The position numbers and the translations under genes are program-made. Under the pieces are notes generated by a model that searched no databases, was not told where the DNA came from, and worked only from the letters and a program-made list of their open reading frames with translations. A stretch of DNA of 64,000 nt, taken from positions 1-64,000 of the forward strand of contig CAIWWN010000157.1 in assembly GCA_903916355.1 (NCBI GenBank). Reading direction: 5' to 3'. The stretch is from an uncultured Burkholderiales bacterium. GTDB lineage: Bacteria; Pseudomonadota; Gammaproteobacteria; Burkholderiales; Burkholderiaceae_C. Each line of letters starts with the position of its first letter. Positions within the stretch are counted from its first letter, which is position 1. Below, one piece after another: positions 7,080-57,533 of this stretch.

Positions 7080-7859
7080 TCAGGCATGGGTCACAAAATG
7101 CTCAGGCGGCGCGGGCTTGCGCCAAAACGGCACTTTTTTGCGCCACAGCAAAAAGGCCTGCCAATGAATGCGCAGCACCACGCCCCAAGTCATCAGCGGA
7201 TACCGCCACAAGGCCTGGCGCAAAGCCGCTCGGGTGGCCGGTTGCAAGGCGCCGCTCCAGCTGGTTTCAATCAAGGCACCAGCGTCGTCGTCATGGTCAA
7301 CCCGCGCCACCACGCGCTCTTGGCCTTGGTGCACGGTGCGCATGAAGCGAAAGCGGTACTGCCCCTCCACGCTGCAAAACGGCGAGACATGAAACACCTT
7401 GCTCGCTTGCAGGGTGTGGCCGTAACGCGGCGCGTCCAGCAAATAGCAATGCCGCTCGCCAAAGGTGTTGTGCACTTCGGCCACGATGGCGGCCAGTTGG
7501 CCGTCTGCCTGGTGGCAATACCAAAAGCTCACCGGCTTGAAGGTGTAGCTCCAGACGCGCGGAAAGGTTTGCAACCAAATTTCGCCGTCGGCGTGTTGCA
7601 CGCCTTCTTGCTGCAGCACCTCGGTGATCCAAGCCAAAGCGCCGCCTTGTGCGGGACTGCGGCCATCGCCGTGGTCGGCATCGTAAAAAGACAAAGGCGC
7701 ATTGCGGTTCAGCGCCAAGTCAGCGTCAGCGCCTTCGGTTTGCAAACGCCGCATCGGCAGCATCAAAAAGTAACTGGGGTAAGCAAACACATGGCGGATC
7801 GGACGCAGCCGGGTATGGCGCACTTGCCCCAAGCCCAAGAGTGCGCCGCCCGTGGTCAT
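7080..7859 (-). CDS. DUF1365 domain-containing protein
   Basis: 259 aa; GQVRHTRLRPIRHVFAYPSYFLMLPM...VSFWYCHQADGQLAAIVAEVHNTFGERHCYLL; adjacent to FAD oxidase and CFA genes as usual. Confidence 0.9.
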   Translation of the reverse strand: MTTGGALLGLGQVRHTRLRPIRHVFAYPSYFLMLPMRRLQTEGADADLALNRNAPLSFYDADHGDGRSPAQGGALAWITEVLQQEGVQHADGEIWLQTFPRVWSYTFKPVSFWYCHQADGQLAAIVAEVHNTFGERHCYLLDAPRYGHTLQASKVFHVSPFCSVEGQYRFRFMRTVHQGQERVVARVDHDDDAGALIETSWSGALQPATRAALRQALWRYPLMTWGVVLRIHWQAFLLWRKKVPFWRKPAPPEHFVTHA

Positions 7860-12086: not shown

Positions 12087-13748
12087 TTAATGCACCACCA
12101 TGCTGGTGAATGGCCACACATACGCTTGCAGCGTCACAAAGCCCCCGACCAGACAGGCCAGGGCGATGGAGTGGAAAAACACATAGCGAAGAATGTCGCC
12201 TTCATGGTCGAACCAGCGCGTGGCCGTGGAGGCCACAACGATGGACTGCGCGTCGATCATCTTGCCCATCACGCCGCCCGAGCTGTTGGCCGCGCCCATC
12301 AGGTTGGGCGACAAGCCCAGCTGCTCGGCCGCCACTTTTTGCATGCCGCCAAACAGCACGTTAGACGCCGTGTCCGAGCCCGTCATGGCCACGCCCAACC
12401 AACCCATCAAGGTACCAAAGAAGGGGTAGAACACGCCGCTGTTGGCAAAGGCCAGCCCCAGCGTGGTGTCGGTGCCTGAGTAGCGGGTCAAGGTGCCCAG
12501 CGCCAGCATCAACACGATGGTCAAGAGCGAGTAACGCACCAACCAAAAAGTGCGCAGGTAGTTGCCGACGATTTCGATCGGGTTGTACTTCATCACCAGC
12601 GCGCCGACGATGGCCGACAACAAAATGCCGGTGCCGGTGGCCGACAACAGATTGAGCGTGTAGACCGCCGCCTCGGGGTGCGGCGTGGTCACCACCGGTG
12701 GCACTTTCATGATCAGGTTGTGCAAGCCGTCGATGGGAAAAGCGGGTGCGTAAAGTTTGTTCAGGTAGGACTTGAAGTCAGGTAACCCCCACACAAAAAC
12801 GAACACCGACAAAATGACCCAAGGTGTCCAAGCGCGAAGCAACTCGGCCTGGCTATGGCGCACGATAGCTTGCGGCTCTTTGGCCTCATGCGCGCTCATA
12901 TCGTGGCCGCGCATGGAAGGCGAGGTCCACAGTTGCTCGGGTTGCCACACGCGTAAAAACAAAATCAACGAACCCATCGAGACGATGGCCGCAACGATGT
13001 CCACCAACTCAGGGCCAATGAAGTTGGAAACCAGGTACTGCGGGATCGCAAAGGACAGGCCAGTGACCAACAAGGCGGGCCAGATTTCCATCATCGCCTT
13101 GCGACCGGCAAAGGCCCAGATCAACCAGAACGGCACCAAGAGCGAGAAGAAGGGCAACTGGCGCCCGATCATGGCGGTGACCTGCATCAGGTCGTAACCG
13201 TGTACCTTGGCCAAGGTGATGACCGGCGTGCCCAGCGCACCAAACGCGACCGGCGCGGTGTTGGCAATCAAGCTCAGCCCCGAAGCCGCCAGCGGCGAGA
13301 ACCCCAGGCCAATCAAAATACCGGCCGTCACCGCCACGGGCGTTCCAAAACCGGCCGCGCCTTCAAAGAAAGCACCAAAGCAAAACGCGATCAACAGCAG
13401 TTGCAAACGCCGGTCTTCGGTGATGCCTGAGAGCGAGTCTTGCAAAATTTTGAAACTGCCGTTCTTCTCCGCCAACTGCTGCAAGAAGATGATGTTCAGC
13501 ACGATCCAGCCAATCGGCAGCAGGCCGGTAAAGCCACCGTACATGGCGGCCTTGCCGGCCATCTCAGCGGGCATGCCGTAGGCCAAAACGGCCACCAACA
13601 CCGCAGCCACAAGGCCCATGCCCGCCGCGATGTGCGCTTTGATGTGAAAGAAGCCGAGGGCGGCCAACATCACCACCACGGGAATCGCTGCCAGCGCCGT
13701 CGAAATGATCATGTTGCCGAAAGGGTCGTATATTTGTTGCCAGGCCAT
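12087..13748 (-). CDS. lldP: L-lactate permease
   Basis: 553 aa; LctP family motifs (FCFGAFFEGAAGFGTPVAVTAGILIGLGF, MTGSDTASNVLFGGMQ, NSSGGVMGKMIDAQSIVVA). Confidence 0.95.
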   Translation of the reverse strand: MAWQQIYDPFGNMIISTALAAIPVVVMLAALGFFHIKAHIAAGMGLVAAVLVAVLAYGMPAEMAGKAAMYGGFTGLLPIGWIVLNIIFLQQLAEKNGSFKILQDSLSGITEDRRLQLLLIAFCFGAFFEGAAGFGTPVAVTAGILIGLGFSPLAASGLSLIANTAPVAFGALGTPVITLAKVHGYDLMQVTAMIGRQLPFFSLLVPFWLIWAFAGRKAMMEIWPALLVTGLSFAIPQYLVSNFIGPELVDIVAAIVSMGSLILFLRVWQPEQLWTSPSMRGHDMSAHEAKEPQAIVRHSQAELLRAWTPWVILSVFVFVWGLPDFKSYLNKLYAPAFPIDGLHNLIMKVPPVVTTPHPEAAVYTLNLLSATGTGILLSAIVGALVMKYNPIEIVGNYLRTFWLVRYSLLTIVLMLALGTLTRYSGTDTTLGLAFANSGVFYPFFGTLMGWLGVAMTGSDTASNVLFGGMQKVAAEQLGLSPNLMGAANSSGGVMGKMIDAQSIVVASTATRWFDHEGDILRYVFFHSIALACLVGGFVTLQAYVWPFTSMVVH

Positions 13749-34669: not shown

Positions 34670-36358
34670 ATGAACCACTGGCAAAAAATCTGCGGCACCC
34701 ACTTTGACACGGACAAGCGCCCTGCCCAGGCGGCGCGCGGCATGGTGGTCACCAACCACCCTTTGGCCTCCGCCGCAGGCACTGAGATGCTGTGCGCCGG
34801 CGGCAATGCGGTGGACGCCGCCGTGGCGGCGCTGTTCACCTTGTCGGTGGTCGAGCCCATGATGGTGGGCTTGCTGGGCGGCGGCTTTGCGCATCTGCGC
34901 CAGCCCGATGGCACGCACACGATTTTGGAGGGGCAAGGGTCCTGCCCGCAGGCGGTGGGGCCGCACACCTTCCAACACGACGCCTCAGCGCCACCAGGCT
35001 CGCTAGAGAGCTTGGGGCGACGCCACAGCCTGGGCCGCGGGTCTGTGGCCACCCCAGGCAACCTGATGGCCTGGTGCCAGATGCTCTCTCGCCACGGCAC
35101 CCTGTCCTTGGAGGATGTGATGGCGCCCGCCATCCAGCATGCGAGCCGCGGCTTTCATGTGACGCAGTACCTGAGCGACTGCATCACCGATAACGCCGCA
35201 GATCTGGCCCTGGACCCTGAAATTGCCCGCGTGTTTGTACCGCAGGGTCAGCCGCTGCAAAAAGGGGATCGCTTGCAGCAAGGCGCTTATGCCGACACCC
35301 TGAAATTGGTTTCGCAGCAAGGCGCCACGGCCTTGTATAGCGGCGCACTGGGCCGCGCCTTGTGCGACGACATTGCCGCGCACGACGGTTTTTTAACCCT
35401 GGAAGATTTGCGCCACTACCGCACGCGCGACCCGGCTCCGCTGCGCTCGTCGTACCGCGGCTTTGACATCATTGGGCCGCCGCCGCCCTGCGCTGGGCCT
35501 TTGCACATTGGCCAGATGCTGAACGTGCTGGAGGGCTTCGATCTGCGCGCCATGGGTTTTGGCACGCCGGCCAGCGTGCACCTGCTGGCCGAGGTGCTGA
35601 AGATGGCTTTTGCCGACCGCGCCGCCGTCACCGCCGACCCCGACTTTGTCAACGTGCCCGTTGAGCGCTTGTTGTCGCCTGCTTACGCGGACTTGCGCCG
35701 AAGCCAGTTGGATCTGCAACGCGCGCAAACCTGGGTGCCAGGCCTGTCACCAAGCGAAAGCGCGCACACCACCCACATCACGGTGGCCGACAGCGACGGG
35801 CGGGTGGTGAGTGCGACGCAGACCATCAACTCGGTTTTTGGCGCGCGCTACATGGTGCCCGGCACCGGTCTGATTCCGAACAATTACCTGTACGTGCTCG
35901 ACCCCCGACCCGACCGCGCCAACTCGATGGCGCCTGGCAAGCGTGTCACCTCTTCGATGGCCCCCTTGATGGTGTTGCAAGGCGGCCAGCCGCGCTACGC
36001 CTTGGGTCTGCCAGGGGGCTTGCGCATCTTCCCCTCGGCCTTGCAGGCGGTGATCAACCTGATCGATCACGGCATGAGTTTGCAACAAGCGGTCGAGGCC
36101 CCACGCGTCTGGACGCAGGGCTTTGACCTGGAGTTGGAGCCGGCTTTTTCACCTGAGCTGCAAGCGGCGCTCGAACAGCAGGGTCATGCGGTCTTGCGCG
36201 TGCCCAACGTGGGCGGCGGCATGAATGCCATCGAATTTCATGACGATGGCCGCCTGGAAGGCGCAGCCTGCTGGCGTGCCGACGGCACGCCGATGGGCGT
36301 CGGCGGTGGAATGGCACGCAAAGGTGTTCGTTTTCTGCCCGAAACGCGCAAACCCTGA
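34670..36358 (+). CDS. Gamma-glutamyltransferase family protein
   Basis: 562 aa; GMVVTNHPLASAAGTEMLCAGGNAVDAAVAALFTLSVVEPMMVGLLGGGF and THITVADSDGRVVSATQTINSVFGA. Confidence 0.94.
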   Translation: MNHWQKICGTHFDTDKRPAQAARGMVVTNHPLASAAGTEMLCAGGNAVDAAVAALFTLSVVEPMMVGLLGGGFAHLRQPDGTHTILEGQGSCPQAVGPHTFQHDASAPPGSLESLGRRHSLGRGSVATPGNLMAWCQMLSRHGTLSLEDVMAPAIQHASRGFHVTQYLSDCITDNAADLALDPEIARVFVPQGQPLQKGDRLQQGAYADTLKLVSQQGATALYSGALGRALCDDIAAHDGFLTLEDLRHYRTRDPAPLRSSYRGFDIIGPPPPCAGPLHIGQMLNVLEGFDLRAMGFGTPASVHLLAEVLKMAFADRAAVTADPDFVNVPVERLLSPAYADLRRSQLDLQRAQTWVPGLSPSESAHTTHITVADSDGRVVSATQTINSVFGARYMVPGTGLIPNNYLYVLDPRPDRANSMAPGKRVTSSMAPLMVLQGGQPRYALGLPGGLRIFPSALQAVINLIDHGMSLQQAVEAPRVWTQGFDLELEPAFSPELQAALEQQGHAVLRVPNVGGGMNAIEFHDDGRLEGAACWRADGTPMGVGGGMARKGVRFLPETRKP

Positions 36359-36446
36359 ATGAGGCCGTGGTCTTGTCGCCTAAAGCTAAGCAAGCCCGCC
36401 CCGTGCGACCTACACTGAATTTTCGACTTCTGCGTTGGAGACCCTG

Positions 36447-41186: not shown

Positions 41187-41963
41187 TCAAGATTTAAGGC
41201 GCTGGATAACCAGTTTTTCGCCTTCAGGGCTAGGTTTGAGGCTGACCTGGGCTGCTTGGCCCCAAATGTCGGCAGGCAAAGCATTTTCGCTGGTTCGGTA
41301 CACACCCGCAATCGAGATCAACTCAGGCTCCATGCACTGCGCAAAGATCATGGCTTGGCTGTTGCCCCTGGCTCCTGCAATGGCTTTGCCGCGCAAAGTG
41401 GAATAGACATGGATGTTGCCATCGGCAATCACCTCAGCACCAGGATTGACCATGGCCAAAATCACCAAATCACGGCCTTTGGCATAGATTTGCTGACCCG
41501 AACGCAAAGGCTTGTCGATCACCAATGCGCCGAGTGCAACAACCGCTTCCAAGGGAGGTACTTTGGCAGCTAGCGCTTTGGCCGCCGGTGCTGGTGAGGG
41601 CGTACTTACCGGTGTTTTTAAAATTCGCGCGTAAGTGGCGTCGATCAATCCTGCCGCTTTACCCGCTTGCATCTGCTCGGGCGAACCTGAGCGTAAAGCA
41701 ATGGGCAACATGCTGTGCAACCGCAGCAACGCCATCAAACGAGGGAAATCAACCGCTTGCGCTTTTTCTGCTTCGGGTAAGCCACTTAAATCAATCACCA
41801 CCGGTTCTTGATCAAAAAAATCAGGCGTTTCGGCCAGTTGTTTTTTCAAATCTTGCGCGAGGGAATCGATCTGAGCCGTTTTCAATAACAGTGCCACCAG
41901 TGCCAAGTCAGCACTTTTGATTTCATAACTGATGGAGGCGCTTGAAGCAGAGGCTGACAACAT
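41187..41963 (-). CDS. minC: Septum site-determining protein MinC
   Basis: 258 aa; C-terminal beta-helix PLRSGQQIYAKGRDLVILAMVNPGAEVIADGNIHVYSTLRGKAIAGARGN. Confidence 0.96.
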   Translation of the reverse strand: MLSASASSASISYEIKSADLALVALLLKTAQIDSLAQDLKKQLAETPDFFDQEPVVIDLSGLPEAEKAQAVDFPRLMALLRLHSMLPIALRSGSPEQMQAGKAAGLIDATYARILKTPVSTPSPAPAAKALAAKVPPLEAVVALGALVIDKPLRSGQQIYAKGRDLVILAMVNPGAEVIADGNIHVYSTLRGKAIAGARGNSQAMIFAQCMEPELISIAGVYRTSENALPADIWGQAAQVSLKPSPEGEKLVIQRLKS

Positions 41964-42240
41964 AGATCCCGTGGGCTTGAAAGGTACAGATTTTACCCCT
42001 CAAGGTTATCCTCTCTCTTTCTCTTATTTCTTTATATCAATATAGTAGTAGTAGATAAGGGTGCCGTGCTTCTGTGGACAAGGTTTTAAAGCTCATATTT
42101 TTCAAAGACTTAGCCTGTCTGTACCCATGTGCACGAGTCTGCTTCGGTGGTGTATCTGAAATATGAATAACTTGGCCACTTTGAAGATTGCTGTGGATAA
42201 CTTGGTCTTTTGAGTCAAACTATCCACAACTTTATACAGC
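41964..42240. other. oriC: Candidate chromosomal replication origin (oriC)
   Basis: AT-rich intergenic. Perfect DnaA box TGTGGATAA (42192-42200, - strand TTATCCACA); one-mismatch boxes at 42073-42081 (TGTGGACAA), 42220-42228 (CTATCCACA) and 42162-42170 (TATGAATAA); TAG x4 at 42043-42054 next to a GC-rich spacer and AT-rich tract. Confidence 0.65.
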
Positions 42241-51780: not shown

Positions 51781-51934
51781 GCGATTTTGGAAGTCGTGAT
51801 ACGGGCGGGCGCTGGGCGCGGCAAAGCCCGGCATGCCGTATTTCTACAGGGAGCTTGTAAAATCAGCCCCTTTGGGGCCGTACTGGCGCAGTGCGGCATT
51901 CGGGCGCGCTGCGCCTTGTCTGTTGGAACTTGCC

Positions 51935-53935
51935 ATGCTTTACCCTGAAGAATTCGACGTGATCGTGGTCGGCGGCGGCCACGCGGGCACCGAAGCGGCG
52001 CTGGCCGCTGCCCGCATGGGCGCGAAAACCTTGCTGCTGTCGCACAACATCGAAACCCTGGGCCAGATGAGTTGCAACCCGTCGATTGGCGGTATTGGCA
52101 AGGGCCACCTGGTCAAAGAGGTGGACGCTTTAGGCGGCGCCATGGCCTTGGCCACCGACGAGAGCGGAATTCAGTTTCGCATTTTGAACAGCTCCAAAGG
52201 ACCGGCTGTGCGCGCCACGCGGGCCCAGGCCGACCGCATTTTGTACAAGGCAGCAATCCGCCATCGCTTGGAAAACCAGCCCAATTTGTGGTTGTTCCAG
52301 CAGGCCGTGGACGACTTGATGGTCGAAGGTGATCGGGTGGTGGGCGCGGTCACGCAAGTGGGCATTCGGTTCCGTTCACGCACCGTGGTGCTGACGGCTG
52401 GAACGTTCTTGGACGGCAAGATCCATGTGGGCCTGCAAAATTACGCGGCTGGGCGCGCCGGCGATCCACCGGCGGTGAGTTTGTCGGCGCGCTTGAAAGA
52501 GCTGCAACTGCCGCAAGGTCGGCTGAAAACAGGTACGCCGCCTCGGCTCGATGGGCGCAGCATCGACTTCAGCCAATGCGCTGAGCAACCTGGCGACGGC
52601 GTACCCGGCGGTCTGAACCCCGAGGCCGGTGTGCCGGTGTTCAGTTTCATGGGCAAGGCCAGCATGCACCCGCAGCACATGCCTTGCTGGATCACCCACA
52701 CCAACGAGCGCACCCACGACATCATCCGCTCCGGCTTTGACCGAAGCCCCATGTTCACCGGCAAGATCGAGGGCGTGGGCCCGCGCTACTGCCCGAGCGT
52801 GGAAGACAAGATCAATCGCTTTGCCGACAAAGACAGCCACCAGATTTTTCTGGAACCCGAAGGCCTGACGACCCACGAGTACTACCCGAACGGCATCTCA
52901 ACCAGCTTGCCTTTTGACATCCAGTACCAGCTGGTGCGCTCGATGAAGGGGCTGGAAAACGCGCACATCTTGCGCCCTGGCTACGCGATTGAATACGACT
53001 ACTTCGACCCGCGCGCGCTGAAGAGCAACTTTGAAACGCGGCAGATCCAGGGCCTTTTCTTTGCCGGGCAAATCAACGGCACCACCGGTTACGAAGAAGC
53101 CGCGGCCCAAGGCCTGTTTGCAGGGCTGAACGCCGCGCTGCAGTGCCGGGGCGACGCGCCTTGGTTGCCTGCGCGCGACCAGGCCTATTTGGGCGTGCTG
53201 GTGGACGACTTGATCAGCAAAGGCGTGACCGAGCCTTACCGCATGTTCACCAGCCGGGCCGAGTTCCGCTTGCAGTTGCGCGAAGACAATGCCGATCTGC
53301 GTCTGACCGAGGTCGGCCGCCAGATGGGCTTGGTGGACGATGCCCGCTGGGACGCCTTCAGCCGCAAACGCGACGCTGTTTCACGTGAAACAGAACGCCT
53401 GAAGTCCATTTGGGTGAATCCGCGCAACCTGCCTGCGGCCGAGGCCGAGCGGGTTCTGGGCAAGGCCATCGAGCACGAATACAACCTGTTTGACCTGTTG
53501 CGCCGCCCGGGCGTGGGCCTGGCCGATTTGATGGGTTTGAATGAAGGACGCTATGCCAGCGCCGATGTTTCACGTGAAACCTTGGGCGACGACCTGGAGG
53601 CGGTAACCGAACAGGTGGAGATTGCCGCCAAGTACGCGGGCTACATCGGTCGGCAGATCGAAGAGGTCGAGCGCTCCAGCCATTACGAGCAACTCAAACT
53701 GCCGGCGGATTTGGATTATTTGCAGGTGTCTGCGCTGTCGATCGAAGCTCGGCAAAAACTGGCCAAGCACCGGCCCGAAACCTTGGGCTTGGCTTCGCGT
53801 ATTTCGGGCATCACGCCAGCGACCATTTCTTTGTTGTTGATTCACCTGAAGAAGGGCGGCGTCAAAGGCTTTAAGTTGGCGGCGCCTGCCGAGGCGGTGG
53901 CCCAAGCAGATACCGTCCAAGAAGGTTCGGCATGA
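51935..53935 (+). CDS. mnmG: tRNA uridine-5-carboxymethylaminomethyl(34) synthesis enzyme MnmG
   Basis: [63 protein letters not shown]. Confidence 0.98.
53377..53392. promoter_or_regulatory. parS: parS centromere site inside mnmG
   Basis: TGTTTCACGTGAAACA, perfect 16-bp palindrome identical to the canonical parS consensus. Confidence 0.95.
53566..53581. promoter_or_regulatory. parS: Second parS site inside mnmG
   Basis: TGTTTCACGTGAAACC, 15/16 match to parS. Confidence 0.92.
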
Positions 53936-54591
53936 GCGACGCCTTGGCCGCGCCCTTGCGTGAGGGCGTCCAGGCCTTGGGCCTGACGCTGTCAGATGCG
54001 ACGCAACAGCAGTTGCTCGCCTTCATGGCATTGATCCAGAAATGGACCCAGGTTTACAACCTGACGGCGGTACGTGATCCGCAAGACATGCTGACGCACC
54101 ATCTGCTGGACAGCCTTTCAGCGCTGACGCCTTTGTTGCGTCATACCGGCGGTCAGCCGATTCGCTTGTTGGATGTGGGCTCCGGCGGCGGTCTGCCAGG
54201 TGTGGTTCTGGCCATTTGCCGGCCCGAGATCCAGGTGACCTGTGTGGACACCGTGGGCAAGAAGGCGGCGTTTATTCAGCAAGTGGCTGTGACTTTGCGT
54301 CTGCCCAATTTGCGCGGGCTCCATGCCCGGGTGGAATCGGTGCAAGAGCGCTATGACGTGGTGTGTTCCCGTGCCTTTGCCTCGCTCAAAGACTTTACCC
54401 AATGGTCGCAGTCCGCCTTGGCCGAGGGCGGCGTGTGGATGGCGATGAAGGGCAAGATGCCCTCCGATGAGATGGCCCAGCTGCCCCCCGAGGTGGAAGT
54501 GTTTCACGTGGAACCATTGACCGTGCCGGGCTTGGATGCCGAGCGCTGCATGCTGTGGTTGCGTCTGCGCGCAACCGGTGTCGCTGCGTAG
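53932..54591 (+). CDS. rsmG: 16S rRNA (guanine(527)-N(7))-methyltransferase RsmG
   Basis: 219 aa; [43 protein letters not shown]; follows mnmG with 4-nt overlap. Confidence 0.97.
54500..54515. promoter_or_regulatory. parS: Imperfect parS-like site inside rsmG
   Basis: TGTTTCACGTGGAACC, 14/16 match to parS. Confidence 0.8.
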
Positions 54592-54665
54592 GCGCGTCAA
54601 TTTCTGCGGGTTGATGCGCCATAAGCATCACGTACACTTGGCGCATTCCCCCAGAAAGAATTTCC

Positions 54666-55283
54666 ATGTTTTTTGGCATTTCGGATTACGGCTCGTTCGT
54701 TGCCGCGATCATCTTGTTTCTGGCCATCCCCGGTCCGGGTAATTTGGCGCTCATCACCTCGACCAGCAAGGGCGGTATCGCCGGCGGTTTGGGTGCCACG
54801 CTGGGCGTGATTGCGGGTGATCAGGTGCTGATGTGGCTGGCGGTGGCCGGTGTGGCTGCGGTGTTGACCACGTACCCTGCGGCCTTTTCCTTCGTGCAGT
54901 GGCTGGGCGCGGCGTACCTCGCCTGGTTGGGCTGGAAGATGTGGTCTGCCAAGCCGGGTGATGCGCCGGTTTTGAATATTTTGCCGCGTCACTATTTCCA
55001 ACAAGCCTTGGCGATCACTTTACTGAACCCGAAGGCCATTGTTTTCTACATGGCGTTTTTTCCTTTGTTTGTTGACCCCAAGCACCACCAGGGGGTGGTC
55101 AGTTTTGGCGTCATGGCGGCCACGATTGCGGGACTGACGTTCCTTTATGGGCTGGGCATGACCTTGTTGACCCATCATCTGGCTGAGCGCATGCGGGCCA
55201 ACCCCCGGGTCGTGCGCTGGCTGGAAAAGTTGGCGGGTGTTTTTCTCATTGGCTTTGGCATCAAGCTCGCCACTTCCAAATAA
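54666..55283 (+). CDS. LysE family translocator
   Basis: 205 aa; LAIPGPGNLALITSTSKGGIAGGLGATLGVIAGDQVLMWLAVAG, LNPKAIVFYMAFFPLFVD. Confidence 0.93.
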   Translation: MFFGISDYGSFVAAIILFLAIPGPGNLALITSTSKGGIAGGLGATLGVIAGDQVLMWLAVAGVAAVLTTYPAAFSFVQWLGAAYLAWLGWKMWSAKPGDAPVLNILPRHYFQQALAITLLNPKAIVFYMAFFPLFVDPKHHQGVVSFGVMAATIAGLTFLYGLGMTLLTHHLAERMRANPRVVRWLEKLAGVFLIGFGIKLATSK

Positions 55284-55298
55284 ATCGGACGCGTTTTC

Positions 55299-56069
55299 AT
55301 GGCCAAAATATTCTGTGTAGCAAACCAAAAAGGCGGTGTGGGCAAGACCACGACCACGGTCAACTTGGCGGCAGGTTTGGCCCTGGTCGGGCAACGCGTT
55401 TTGTTGATCGACTTGGACCCCCAAGGCAATGCCACCATGGGTTCGGGCATCGACAAACGCCAATTGGCGCTGACGGTCTACGACGTCTTGCTGGAGTCGG
55501 CCAGCATCATGGAAGCCGCGATCTTCGCCGAGAAATGCGGCTACCACGTGGTCGGTGCCAACCGCGAATTGGCGGGTGCTGAGGTCGAGTTGGTGGACTT
55601 GGAGCACCGTGACCAGCGCCTGAAGCTGGCCTTGGCCCAGGTTCAAGACCACTTTGATTTTGTGCTGATCGACTGCCCGCCGTCCTTGTCCATGCTCACG
55701 CTCAATGGCCTGTGCTCGGCGAACGGCGTGATCGTGCCGATGCAGTGCGAGTACTTTGCGCTGGAGGGCCTGACCGACCTGGTCAACACCATCAAACAAG
55801 TGCACGCCAATTTGAACCGCGACCTGAAGATCATTGGCCTGTTGCGCGTGATGTTCGATCCGCGCATCACCCTGCAGCAGCAGGTGGGCGAGCAGCTCAA
55901 GTCGCATTTTGGCGACAAGGTGTTCAACACCGTGATCCCGCGTAATGTGCGTCTGGCCGAAGCGCCCAGCTACGGCCTGCCCGGCGTGGTGTTTGACCCA
56001 TCAGCCAAAGGCAGCCAGGCTTTCGTCGAGTTCGCCCGCGAGTTGGTTGAACGTATTCCCACAATGTGA
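55299..56069 (+). CDS. parA: Chromosome partitioning ATPase ParA
   Basis: MAKIFCVANQKGGVGKTTTTVNLAAGLALVGQRVLLIDLDPQGNATMGSGID. Confidence 0.97.
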   Translation: MAKIFCVANQKGGVGKTTTTVNLAAGLALVGQRVLLIDLDPQGNATMGSGIDKRQLALTVYDVLLESASIMEAAIFAEKCGYHVVGANRELAGAEVELVDLEHRDQRLKLALAQVQDHFDFVLIDCPPSLSMLTLNGLCSANGVIVPMQCEYFALEGLTDLVNTIKQVHANLNRDLKIIGLLRVMFDPRITLQQQVGEQLKSHFGDKVFNTVIPRNVRLAEAPSYGLPGVVFDPSAKGSQAFVEFARELVERIPTM

Positions 56070-56070
56070 A

Positions 56071-56610
56071 ATGATAACGCCCCGCGTCTTGGTGTTGCCC
56101 GGCTGGCAGGGCAGTGGTCCCGCGCATTGGCAATTGCGTTGGGTGGCCGCGCATGGCTATACCGCGGTGGAGCAGCATGACTGGCTGCGCCCCTTGCGCG
56201 GCGACTGGCTGATGCGCCTGGAAGAGGCCGTGCTCGAGGCCCCTGGCGCGGTGGCGCTGGTGGCGCACGGCCTGGGCTGCCACCAGGTGGCCGCCTGGGC
56301 GGCGCACTCTCACAATACGGCGCGCGTGCGTGCTGCTTTGTTGGTGGCGCCGGTCGACATGCAAACGCCTGAGCTGAGCCACGCCCTGCCCAGTTGGTCG
56401 CCAGTGTCGCGTCAACGTCTGCCCTTTAAGGCGGTGGTGGTGGGCAGTGAAAACGACCCCTATTGCAGCTTGGACGAGGCGCAAACGCGGGCCTTGAACT
56501 GGGGCGCGCAATGGGTGAACCTGGGGCCGGCGGGCCACATCAACACCGAATCGAAACTGGGCGACTGGCCACAAGGCCTGGCGCTATTGAATGAACTTTT
56601 GAAAGACTGA
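56071..56610 (+). CDS. RBBP9/YdeN family alpha/beta hydrolase
   Basis: MITPRVLVLPGWQGSGPAHWQLRW, ALVAHGLGCHQVAAWAA, LGPAGHINTESKLGDWPQG. Confidence 0.92.
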   Translation: MITPRVLVLPGWQGSGPAHWQLRWVAAHGYTAVEQHDWLRPLRGDWLMRLEEAVLEAPGAVALVAHGLGCHQVAAWAAHSHNTARVRAALLVAPVDMQTPELSHALPSWSPVSRQRLPFKAVVVGSENDPYCSLDEAQTRALNWGAQWVNLGPAGHINTESKLGDWPQGLALLNELLKD

Positions 56611-56612
56611 CC

Positions 56613-57533
56613 ATGGTCACGAAAAAACCCAAAGGCCTCGGCCGCGGCCTCGAAGCTTTACTGGGCCCCAAAGTGCAAGAAGCACCGACGCAGGCCGCAG
56701 GCGTGGCCAACGATGGTATCTCCACCACCTTGGCGCTGGACGCCTTGGTGCCCGGCGTTTACCAACCGCGCACGCGCATGGACGAGGGCGCTTTGTACGA
56801 GTTGGCCGAATCCATCAAGGTGCAAGGCATCATGCAGCCGATCTTGGTGCGCCAGCTGCACGAGGGGCCCAACGCCGGCAAGTACGAAATCATTGCCGGC
56901 GAGCGGCGTTTCAGGGCCTCGCGTTTAGCGGGCCTGGACCGTGTGCCGGTGTTGGTGCGCGACGTGCCTAATGAGTCTGCCGCTGCGATGGCGCTGATTG
57001 AAAATATCCAGCGCGAAGACCTGAACCCCTTGGAAGAAGCGCAGGGCTTGCAGCGCCTGATCAAAGAGTTTGGCCTGACCCATGAAACCGCCGCCCAGGC
57101 GGTGGGCCGCTCGCGCAGCGCCGCCAGCAATTTGCTGCGTTTGCTGAACCTGGCCGAGCCGGTGCAAACCATGCTGATGGCGGGCGACTTGGACATGGGC
57201 CACGCCCGCGCTTTGTTGTCGCTGGACCGGGCCACCCAAATCACAGCGGCGAACCAAATCACCGCCAAGAAAATGTCGGTGCGCGAGACCGAAAGCCTGG
57301 TCAAAAAACTCAGTGCCGAATTCAATTTGGTGCCGCAAAAACCCAAGAAAGAAAAATCTCGCGACATCCGCCGGGTCGAGGAAGAACTGGCTGATTTGCT
57401 GATGGCGGAGGTGGAGGTGCGCATCAAAAAGCGCGTCAAGCGCCACGGCAAGATAGAAGAGATGGGCGAGCTGTCGATTCAGTTCGGCTCGCTGGAAGCG
57501 CTCAACGGCTTGATTGACCGCTTGCGCGGCTAA
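56613..57533 (+). CDS. parB: Chromosome partitioning protein ParB
   Basis: 306 aa; KPKGLGRGLEALLG, YQPRTRMDEGALYELAESIKVQGIMQPILVR, YEIIAGERRFRASRLAG. Confidence 0.97.
   Translation: MVTKKPKGLGRGLEALLGPKVQEAPTQAAGVANDGISTTLALDALVPGVYQPRTRMDEGALYELAESIKVQGIMQPILVRQLHEGPNAGKYEIIAGERRFRASRLAGLDRVPVLVRDVPNESAAAMALIENIQREDLNPLEEAQGLQRLIKEFGLTHETAAQAVGRSRSAASNLLRLLNLAEPVQTMLMAGDLDMGHARALLSLDRATQITAANQITAKKMSVRETESLVKKLSAEFNLVPQKPKKEKSRDIRRVEEELADLLMAEVEVRIKKRVKRHGKIEEMGELSIQFGSLEALNGLIDRLRG

Follow-up and report, generated by a model that had tools for sequence, protein, structure and literature searches.

Organization of the minC-DUF2788 Intergenic Region

The analyzed stretch of DNA (the window, 64,000 nucleotides) represents nearly all of a 64.3-kb contig within a 3.48-Mb assembly of 294 contigs from a freshwater bacterium. 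The window genus is a Limnohabitans-like group of the Comamonadaceae, and the named relatives belong to Limnohabitans and to other Comamonadaceae of fresh water. The minC gene (41187–41963, minus strand), followed by minD and minE, and a gene encoding a DUF2788 protein (PF10981; 42241–42450, minus strand) are the left and right neighbors of a 277-bp non-coding gap (41964–42240) that contains all candidate origin elements, organized as a module that is read on the minus strand. An origin-proximal type of partition locus (mnmG-rsmG-lysE-like transporter-parA-parB) is located at 51833–57533 on the plus strand, with parA at 55299–56069, parB at 56613–57533 and parS sites at 53377 (perfect), 53566 (one mismatch), and 54500 (two mismatches). 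A first-pass annotation of the same DNA had placed parS and parAB 11–15 kb from the gap, in agreement with the distances found here (11.3–12.4 kb for the parS sites and 10–15 kb for mnmG-rsmG-parA-parB).

The gap contains an oriC-type cluster of three DnaA boxes with at most one mismatch. The box CTATCCACA (42220–42228, plus strand), which reads TTATCCACA in most genus relatives, is inverted relative to the next box, TTATCCACA (42192–42200, minus strand), at a start-to-start distance of 28 bp; the latter is near-invariant in the genus and is the only perfect TTATNCACA in the whole window. These are followed on the minus strand by a degenerate DnaA-box-like site TTATTCATA (42162–42170; TTGTTCATT preceded by AAG in the majority of the genus, kept in the genus and partly in the family), a weak box-like site TCGTGCACA with a conserved CACA core (42128–42136), a conserved block CTAAGTCTTTG (AAGTC..TTG, 42103–42113), and the DnaA box TTGTCCACA (42073–42081), a putative loading box that adjoins the trios. 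An 18-nt spacer of mostly variable sequence with a conserved CTTA end (42055–42072, minus strand) separates this box from the DnaA-trio array CTACTACTACTA (42043–42054, minus strand), a (CTA)4 repeat that corresponds to 3'-GAT-5' on the other strand and is read as (TAG)4 at 42043; nowhere else in the window do three or more TAG/CTA units follow one another. The predicted DNA unwinding element (41999–42058, no strand assigned) overlaps the trios and is the least stable 60-bp stretch of the window. Based on nearest-neighbor energies, the least stable 40-, 60-, and 100-bp stretches start at 42018, 41999, and 42013, respectively, all within the trios and the adjoining AT-rich DNA.

Every motif listed in the first-pass annotation was recovered at its position, and the AT-rich unwinding element that had been proposed beyond the trios coincides with the least stable DNA of the window. 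The spacer, which had been described as GC-rich, is present but only mildly so (56% GC over 18 nt). The proposed match to the basal unwinding system (BUS) holds for the order of box, trios, and AT-rich DNA, and TTGTCCACA (at most two mismatches) followed by (CTA)4 conforms to the BUS rule of at least three NTN trios (3'-NAN-5' on the other strand). The spacer lies at the long end of what has been published: it exceeds the peak of 10–13 nt and the 16-nt limit of the published search, beyond which a second degenerate box is expected. No convincing second box was seen within the 18 nt of the window spacer. Many family members have a 14-nt spacer, so the window lineage carries extra bases beside the trios.

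Specificity of the Motif Arrangement

The 277-bp gap was compared with 4,000 versions of itself simulated under a first-order Markov model, of which one contained three boxes with at most one mismatch and none contained a box followed by 10–20 nt and (CTA)3. Sampling of two complete relatives (1.3 Mb in total) found three such boxes clustered within a 300-bp span only at the orthologous locus. The BUS pattern TCCACA-N13-20-CTACTA was rejected as an origin marker in its own right: a BUS-like pattern is present in 39 out of 44 genomes that are at least 95% complete, but the reversed control also occurs once to several times in most genomes. The pattern being non-specific, the evidence rests on position and fixed geometry.

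GC Skew at the Element and at dnaA

The first-pass annotation had sensed a change in skew across the gap, and this change is real (−0.021 to the left and +0.045 to the right of position 42060 within the window). The raw cumulative minimum in the window is located at 35965, 6 kb to the left of the element, as can happen over short distances, so that the window alone does not place the origin precisely. Because the window genome is divided into 294 contigs, skew was tested on stretches of four relatives with complete or nearly contiguous genomes (G006, G064, G034, and G081). In each of the four, the switch from negative to positive skew coincides with the orthologous element rather than with dnaA.

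The single 2.95-Mb contig of G006 carries the element at 343 kb. All sampled 20-kb stretches between 220 and 340 kb are negative, including the dnaA stretch at 260 kb (−0.03 on either side of the gene), and all sampled stretches from 340 kb to 1.82 Mb are positive; the raw minimum is 8 kb from the element and the terminus-side sign change falls between samples at 1.80 and 1.95 Mb, about half a genome away. Single stretches of G064 (one contig, 3.37 Mb) are noisy, but the cumulative minimum over 2.82–3.22 Mb is located at 3141088; the element (3139973) is 1.1 kb and dnaA 288 kb away. The values for G034 and G081 are −0.040 and −0.040 to the left of the element and +0.044 and +0.051 to its right. 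The flanks of dnaA in the window genome display mixed skew (positive on the left, near zero on the right) that does not resemble an origin-type switch.

The dnaA gene of the window genome is located on another contig (C270:60829), and the element is accordingly not adjacent to it. In relatives, the two are separated by approximately 83 kb (G006, G001, and G032), 150 kb (G034), 180–183 kb (G071 and G014), 283 kb (G081), and 288 kb (G064), which bears out the earlier proposal that the origin is unlinked from dnaA. Origins linked to dnaA are the textbook case, and the true origin might accordingly be sought in the rpmH-dnaA or dnaA-dnaN gap, with the minC-DUF2788 element as a secondary DnaA-binding site. 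The rpmH-dnaA gap of the window genome (L001, 1374–1432) contains one perfect DnaA box and CTGTCCACA, as do those of G006 and G064, which speaks for such a location. However, neither a trio array nor a three-box cluster was seen in the rpmH-dnaA gaps that were read, and no negative-to-positive switch accompanies dnaA in G006 or in the sampled stretches of G064, G034, and G081. An origin at dnaA is thus highly improbable, and the box and CTGTCCACA in the rpmH-dnaA gap probably represent autoregulation or a remnant.

Conservation within the Genus and the Family

Boxes, spacing, trios, and the AT-rich element are conserved across the genus and the family, as an origin at this site had been predicted to be. 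At the minC loci of the genus where the gap is present, three boxes with constant spacings of 28 and approximately 119 bp are followed by CTA repeats. An alignment of 69 modules shows conservation of the boxes, the degenerate AAGTTGTTCAT site, the CACA site, the AAGTC..TTG block, the trios, and the AT-rich tail, and most of the remaining positions are free, including the first dozen bases of the spacer. A DNA search with the gap as query reaches just 41 of the 91 genus genomes because the spacer bases diverge, which makes the motif geometry the better probe. About half of the genus carries an extra base between TTA and CTA (CTTATCTACTA vs. CTTACTACTA, comparing window positions 42055–42072 with relatives), and the phase between box and trios consequently differs by 1 nt between close relatives.

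A wider search showed that many genera of the family besides that of the window contain the module. Based on 24 modules from 19 genomes (including the window), the common layout consists of a TGTGGATA-like box, TTATCCACA, a AAGTTGTTCAT-like site, the CACA site, the trio-side box, the spacer, CTA-type trios, and an AT-rich end. In six other genera the module occupies the dnaA-dnaN gap or is adjacent to dnaA: in G300 it separates dnaA from the reading frames that come next and resemble DnaN and GyrB, in G301, G302, G315, and G287 it adjoins dnaA, and in G330 it is found a short way upstream of dnaA, on the other side of the record start. These modules share with the window the box geometry (in the modules measured, 127–128 bp from the TTATCCACA box up to and including the trio-side box), the AAGTTGTTCAT-like site, the trios, and the AT-rich end, and differ only in location. 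In at least 13 further genomes (G138, G293, G260, G241, G303, G351, G254, G295, G247, G268, G329, G333, and G299), the module is located approximately 13–260 kb from dnaA, mostly within 20–50 kb of mnmG. The skew figures given above cover the genus relatives and the window genome. The shared layout places the window element in the same homologous set as the classic dnaA-dnaN origins.

Overall, the anatomy, the conservation, the position at the skew switch in four relatives, and the homology to modules within the dnaA-dnaN gap or adjacent to dnaA indicate that the gap is very probably the chromosomal replication origin, oriC, of this bacterium. The first-pass annotation had come to the same identification, which the skew of the four relatives and the conservation in genus and family support and which the modules at dnaA in other genera strengthen further. 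The replication origin of a dominant freshwater genus would thereby be fixed. The sequences of complete Limnohabitans genomes have been rotated so that they begin at dnaA (PMC10019246), a start point that is not the origin by the evidence presented here. A search of the literature, as distinct from origin databases (DoriC), found no description of a Limnohabitans or Comamonadaceae oriC next to minC.

Gene Neighborhood of the Probable Origin

The mnmG gene was located within about 10 kb of the element in all nine relatives that were checked. The origin in the window lineage is split from the initiator gene and now travels with the mnmG-parAB neighborhood, a placement that is unusual and lineage-specific. 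The gene for the DUF2788 protein was rejected as a general origin neighbor, since no box clusters were found at 29 DUF2788 loci outside the genus; among the loci examined, the link between DUF2788 and the origin is confined to the genus.

The earlier description of an origin that adjoins minCDE is accurate for the window but not as a requirement. The pairing of origin and minC is kept in most genus loci that were read and is missing from the G006/G001 group and from minC loci outside the genus. In G006 (L234) and G001 (L283), the same origin site is present with no minCDE adjoining it, and neither genome contains a match to MinC.

These observations bear on two readings that involve regulation. 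DnaA-box clusters can serve titration or transcription control, and the element is directly upstream of minC, as would suit a datA- or DARS-like titration site or a DnaA-controlled minC promoter in place of an origin. Such a site would leave unexplained the trios, the least stable DNA of the window, the position at the skew switch, and the homology to the dnaA-dnaN modules, and the element persists in G006 and G001 without an adjoining minC; we consider this reading barely credible. Compatible with an oriC is the suggestion that the origin doubles as a promoter region responsive to DnaA, through which minC expression would be coupled to initiation. The start of minC adjoins the AT-rich element and the pairing recurs in most of the genus loci, but its absence in the G006/G001 group and at the minC loci of other genera makes this dual role unlikely.

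The origin is part of an island composed of a 2-oxoacid oxidoreductase gene, minEDC, the origin, DUF2788, and a copA-like gene. When window positions 36435–57533 are set against L278–L282, this island is inverted relative to mnmG. The window shares its orientation with G006 and G001, and the island is reversed in G064, G071, G081, G034, G014, and G036. Among large rearrangements of bacterial genomes, inversions centered near the origin predominate (PMC9584773), and an island that is inverted relative to mnmG while mnmG remains close fits inversions around an origin.

Proposed Mechanism and Comparison with Known Origins

The window element is very probably an ordinary DnaA-dependent oriC of the basal-unwinding type (DnaA-box and DnaA-trio). 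In other bacteria, DnaA at the trio-side box is guided onto the 3'-GAT-5' trios, where it stretches one strand and opens the duplex (PMC8287927). By analogy, we infer DnaA binding, trio engagement, unwinding, helicase loading, and firing at the window locus. DnaA would bind the inverted box pair (42220/42192), the weaker sites, and the box at 42073, from which it would be handed over the spacer onto the CTA trios to form a filament along one strand. The AT-rich element would then open at approximately 41999–42042, and the helicase could be loaded there, with two forks departing in opposite directions.

Origins of the BUS type, such as oriC of Bacillus subtilis (PMC8287927, PMC6669920), display the same order of box, spacer, 3'-GAT-5' trios, and AT-rich DNA on the correct strand. 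The window shares this order, with four trios, and differs from them in its longer spacer and in being unlinked from dnaA. Other origins are likewise displaced from dnaA (DoriC distances, PMC9584773); the particular features here are that the displaced origin lies near mnmG-parAB in most of the family genomes checked and that its minC and DUF2788 neighbors are genus-specific. This kind of origin is already known; what merits further study is its detachment from dnaA and the presence of doubled copies in some relatives. This oriC offers functional positions that are readable from natural divergence across a whole family. In a family whose origin is split from the initiator gene and sometimes doubled, comparisons could test how valuable dnaA linkage and a single origin are.

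Second Copies of the Module

The 64-kb window contains no second copy of the module. Four relatives (G065, G067, G070, and G094) each contain a second complete module that is inverted and located about 5.0–5.8 kb away on the copA side (L274 in G065, 7315–7470 and 12994–13150; L275 in G067; L276 in G070; L277 in G094). The inverted copies flank the genes from DUF2788 to copA-like, and both have boxes, trios, and AT-rich ends. As in the bipartite origins of B. subtilis and Helicobacter pylori (PMC4285127) and in putative double origins (PMC4403523), the box clusters are separated by genes. In contrast to these, the copies are inverted and each has its own trios and unwinding element; the intervening genes also differ from those of bipartite origins (DUF2788 to copA-like instead of dnaA), and a single copy is seen in the window.

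The two copies within one genome are 61–67% identical and retain the boxes, trios, and AT-rich parts, whereas a comparison of the G065 and G067 second copies gives 95% identity. Judged from this low identity within genomes, the retained parts, and the likeness of the G065 and G067 copies, the paired copies are old paralogues that have remained origin-like. The trio-side box of the second copy in G070 is TTTTCCACA. A tree built from the 245-bp modules has little resolution and does not decide between a single and a repeated origin of the second copies.

We tentatively raise the possibility that the family origin is a portable, duplicable cassette that moved out of the dnaA-dnaN gap to a place near mnmG-parAB, and that the two-copy genomes may fire both copies. 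If true, such genomes would be natural examples of a bacterial chromosome on which two functional DnaA origins lie close together. In other genera of the family, tandem modules were also observed 300–600 bp apart in G241 (L336), G287 (L331), G303 (L337), and G305 (L338), and 4.2 kb apart in G293 (L334).
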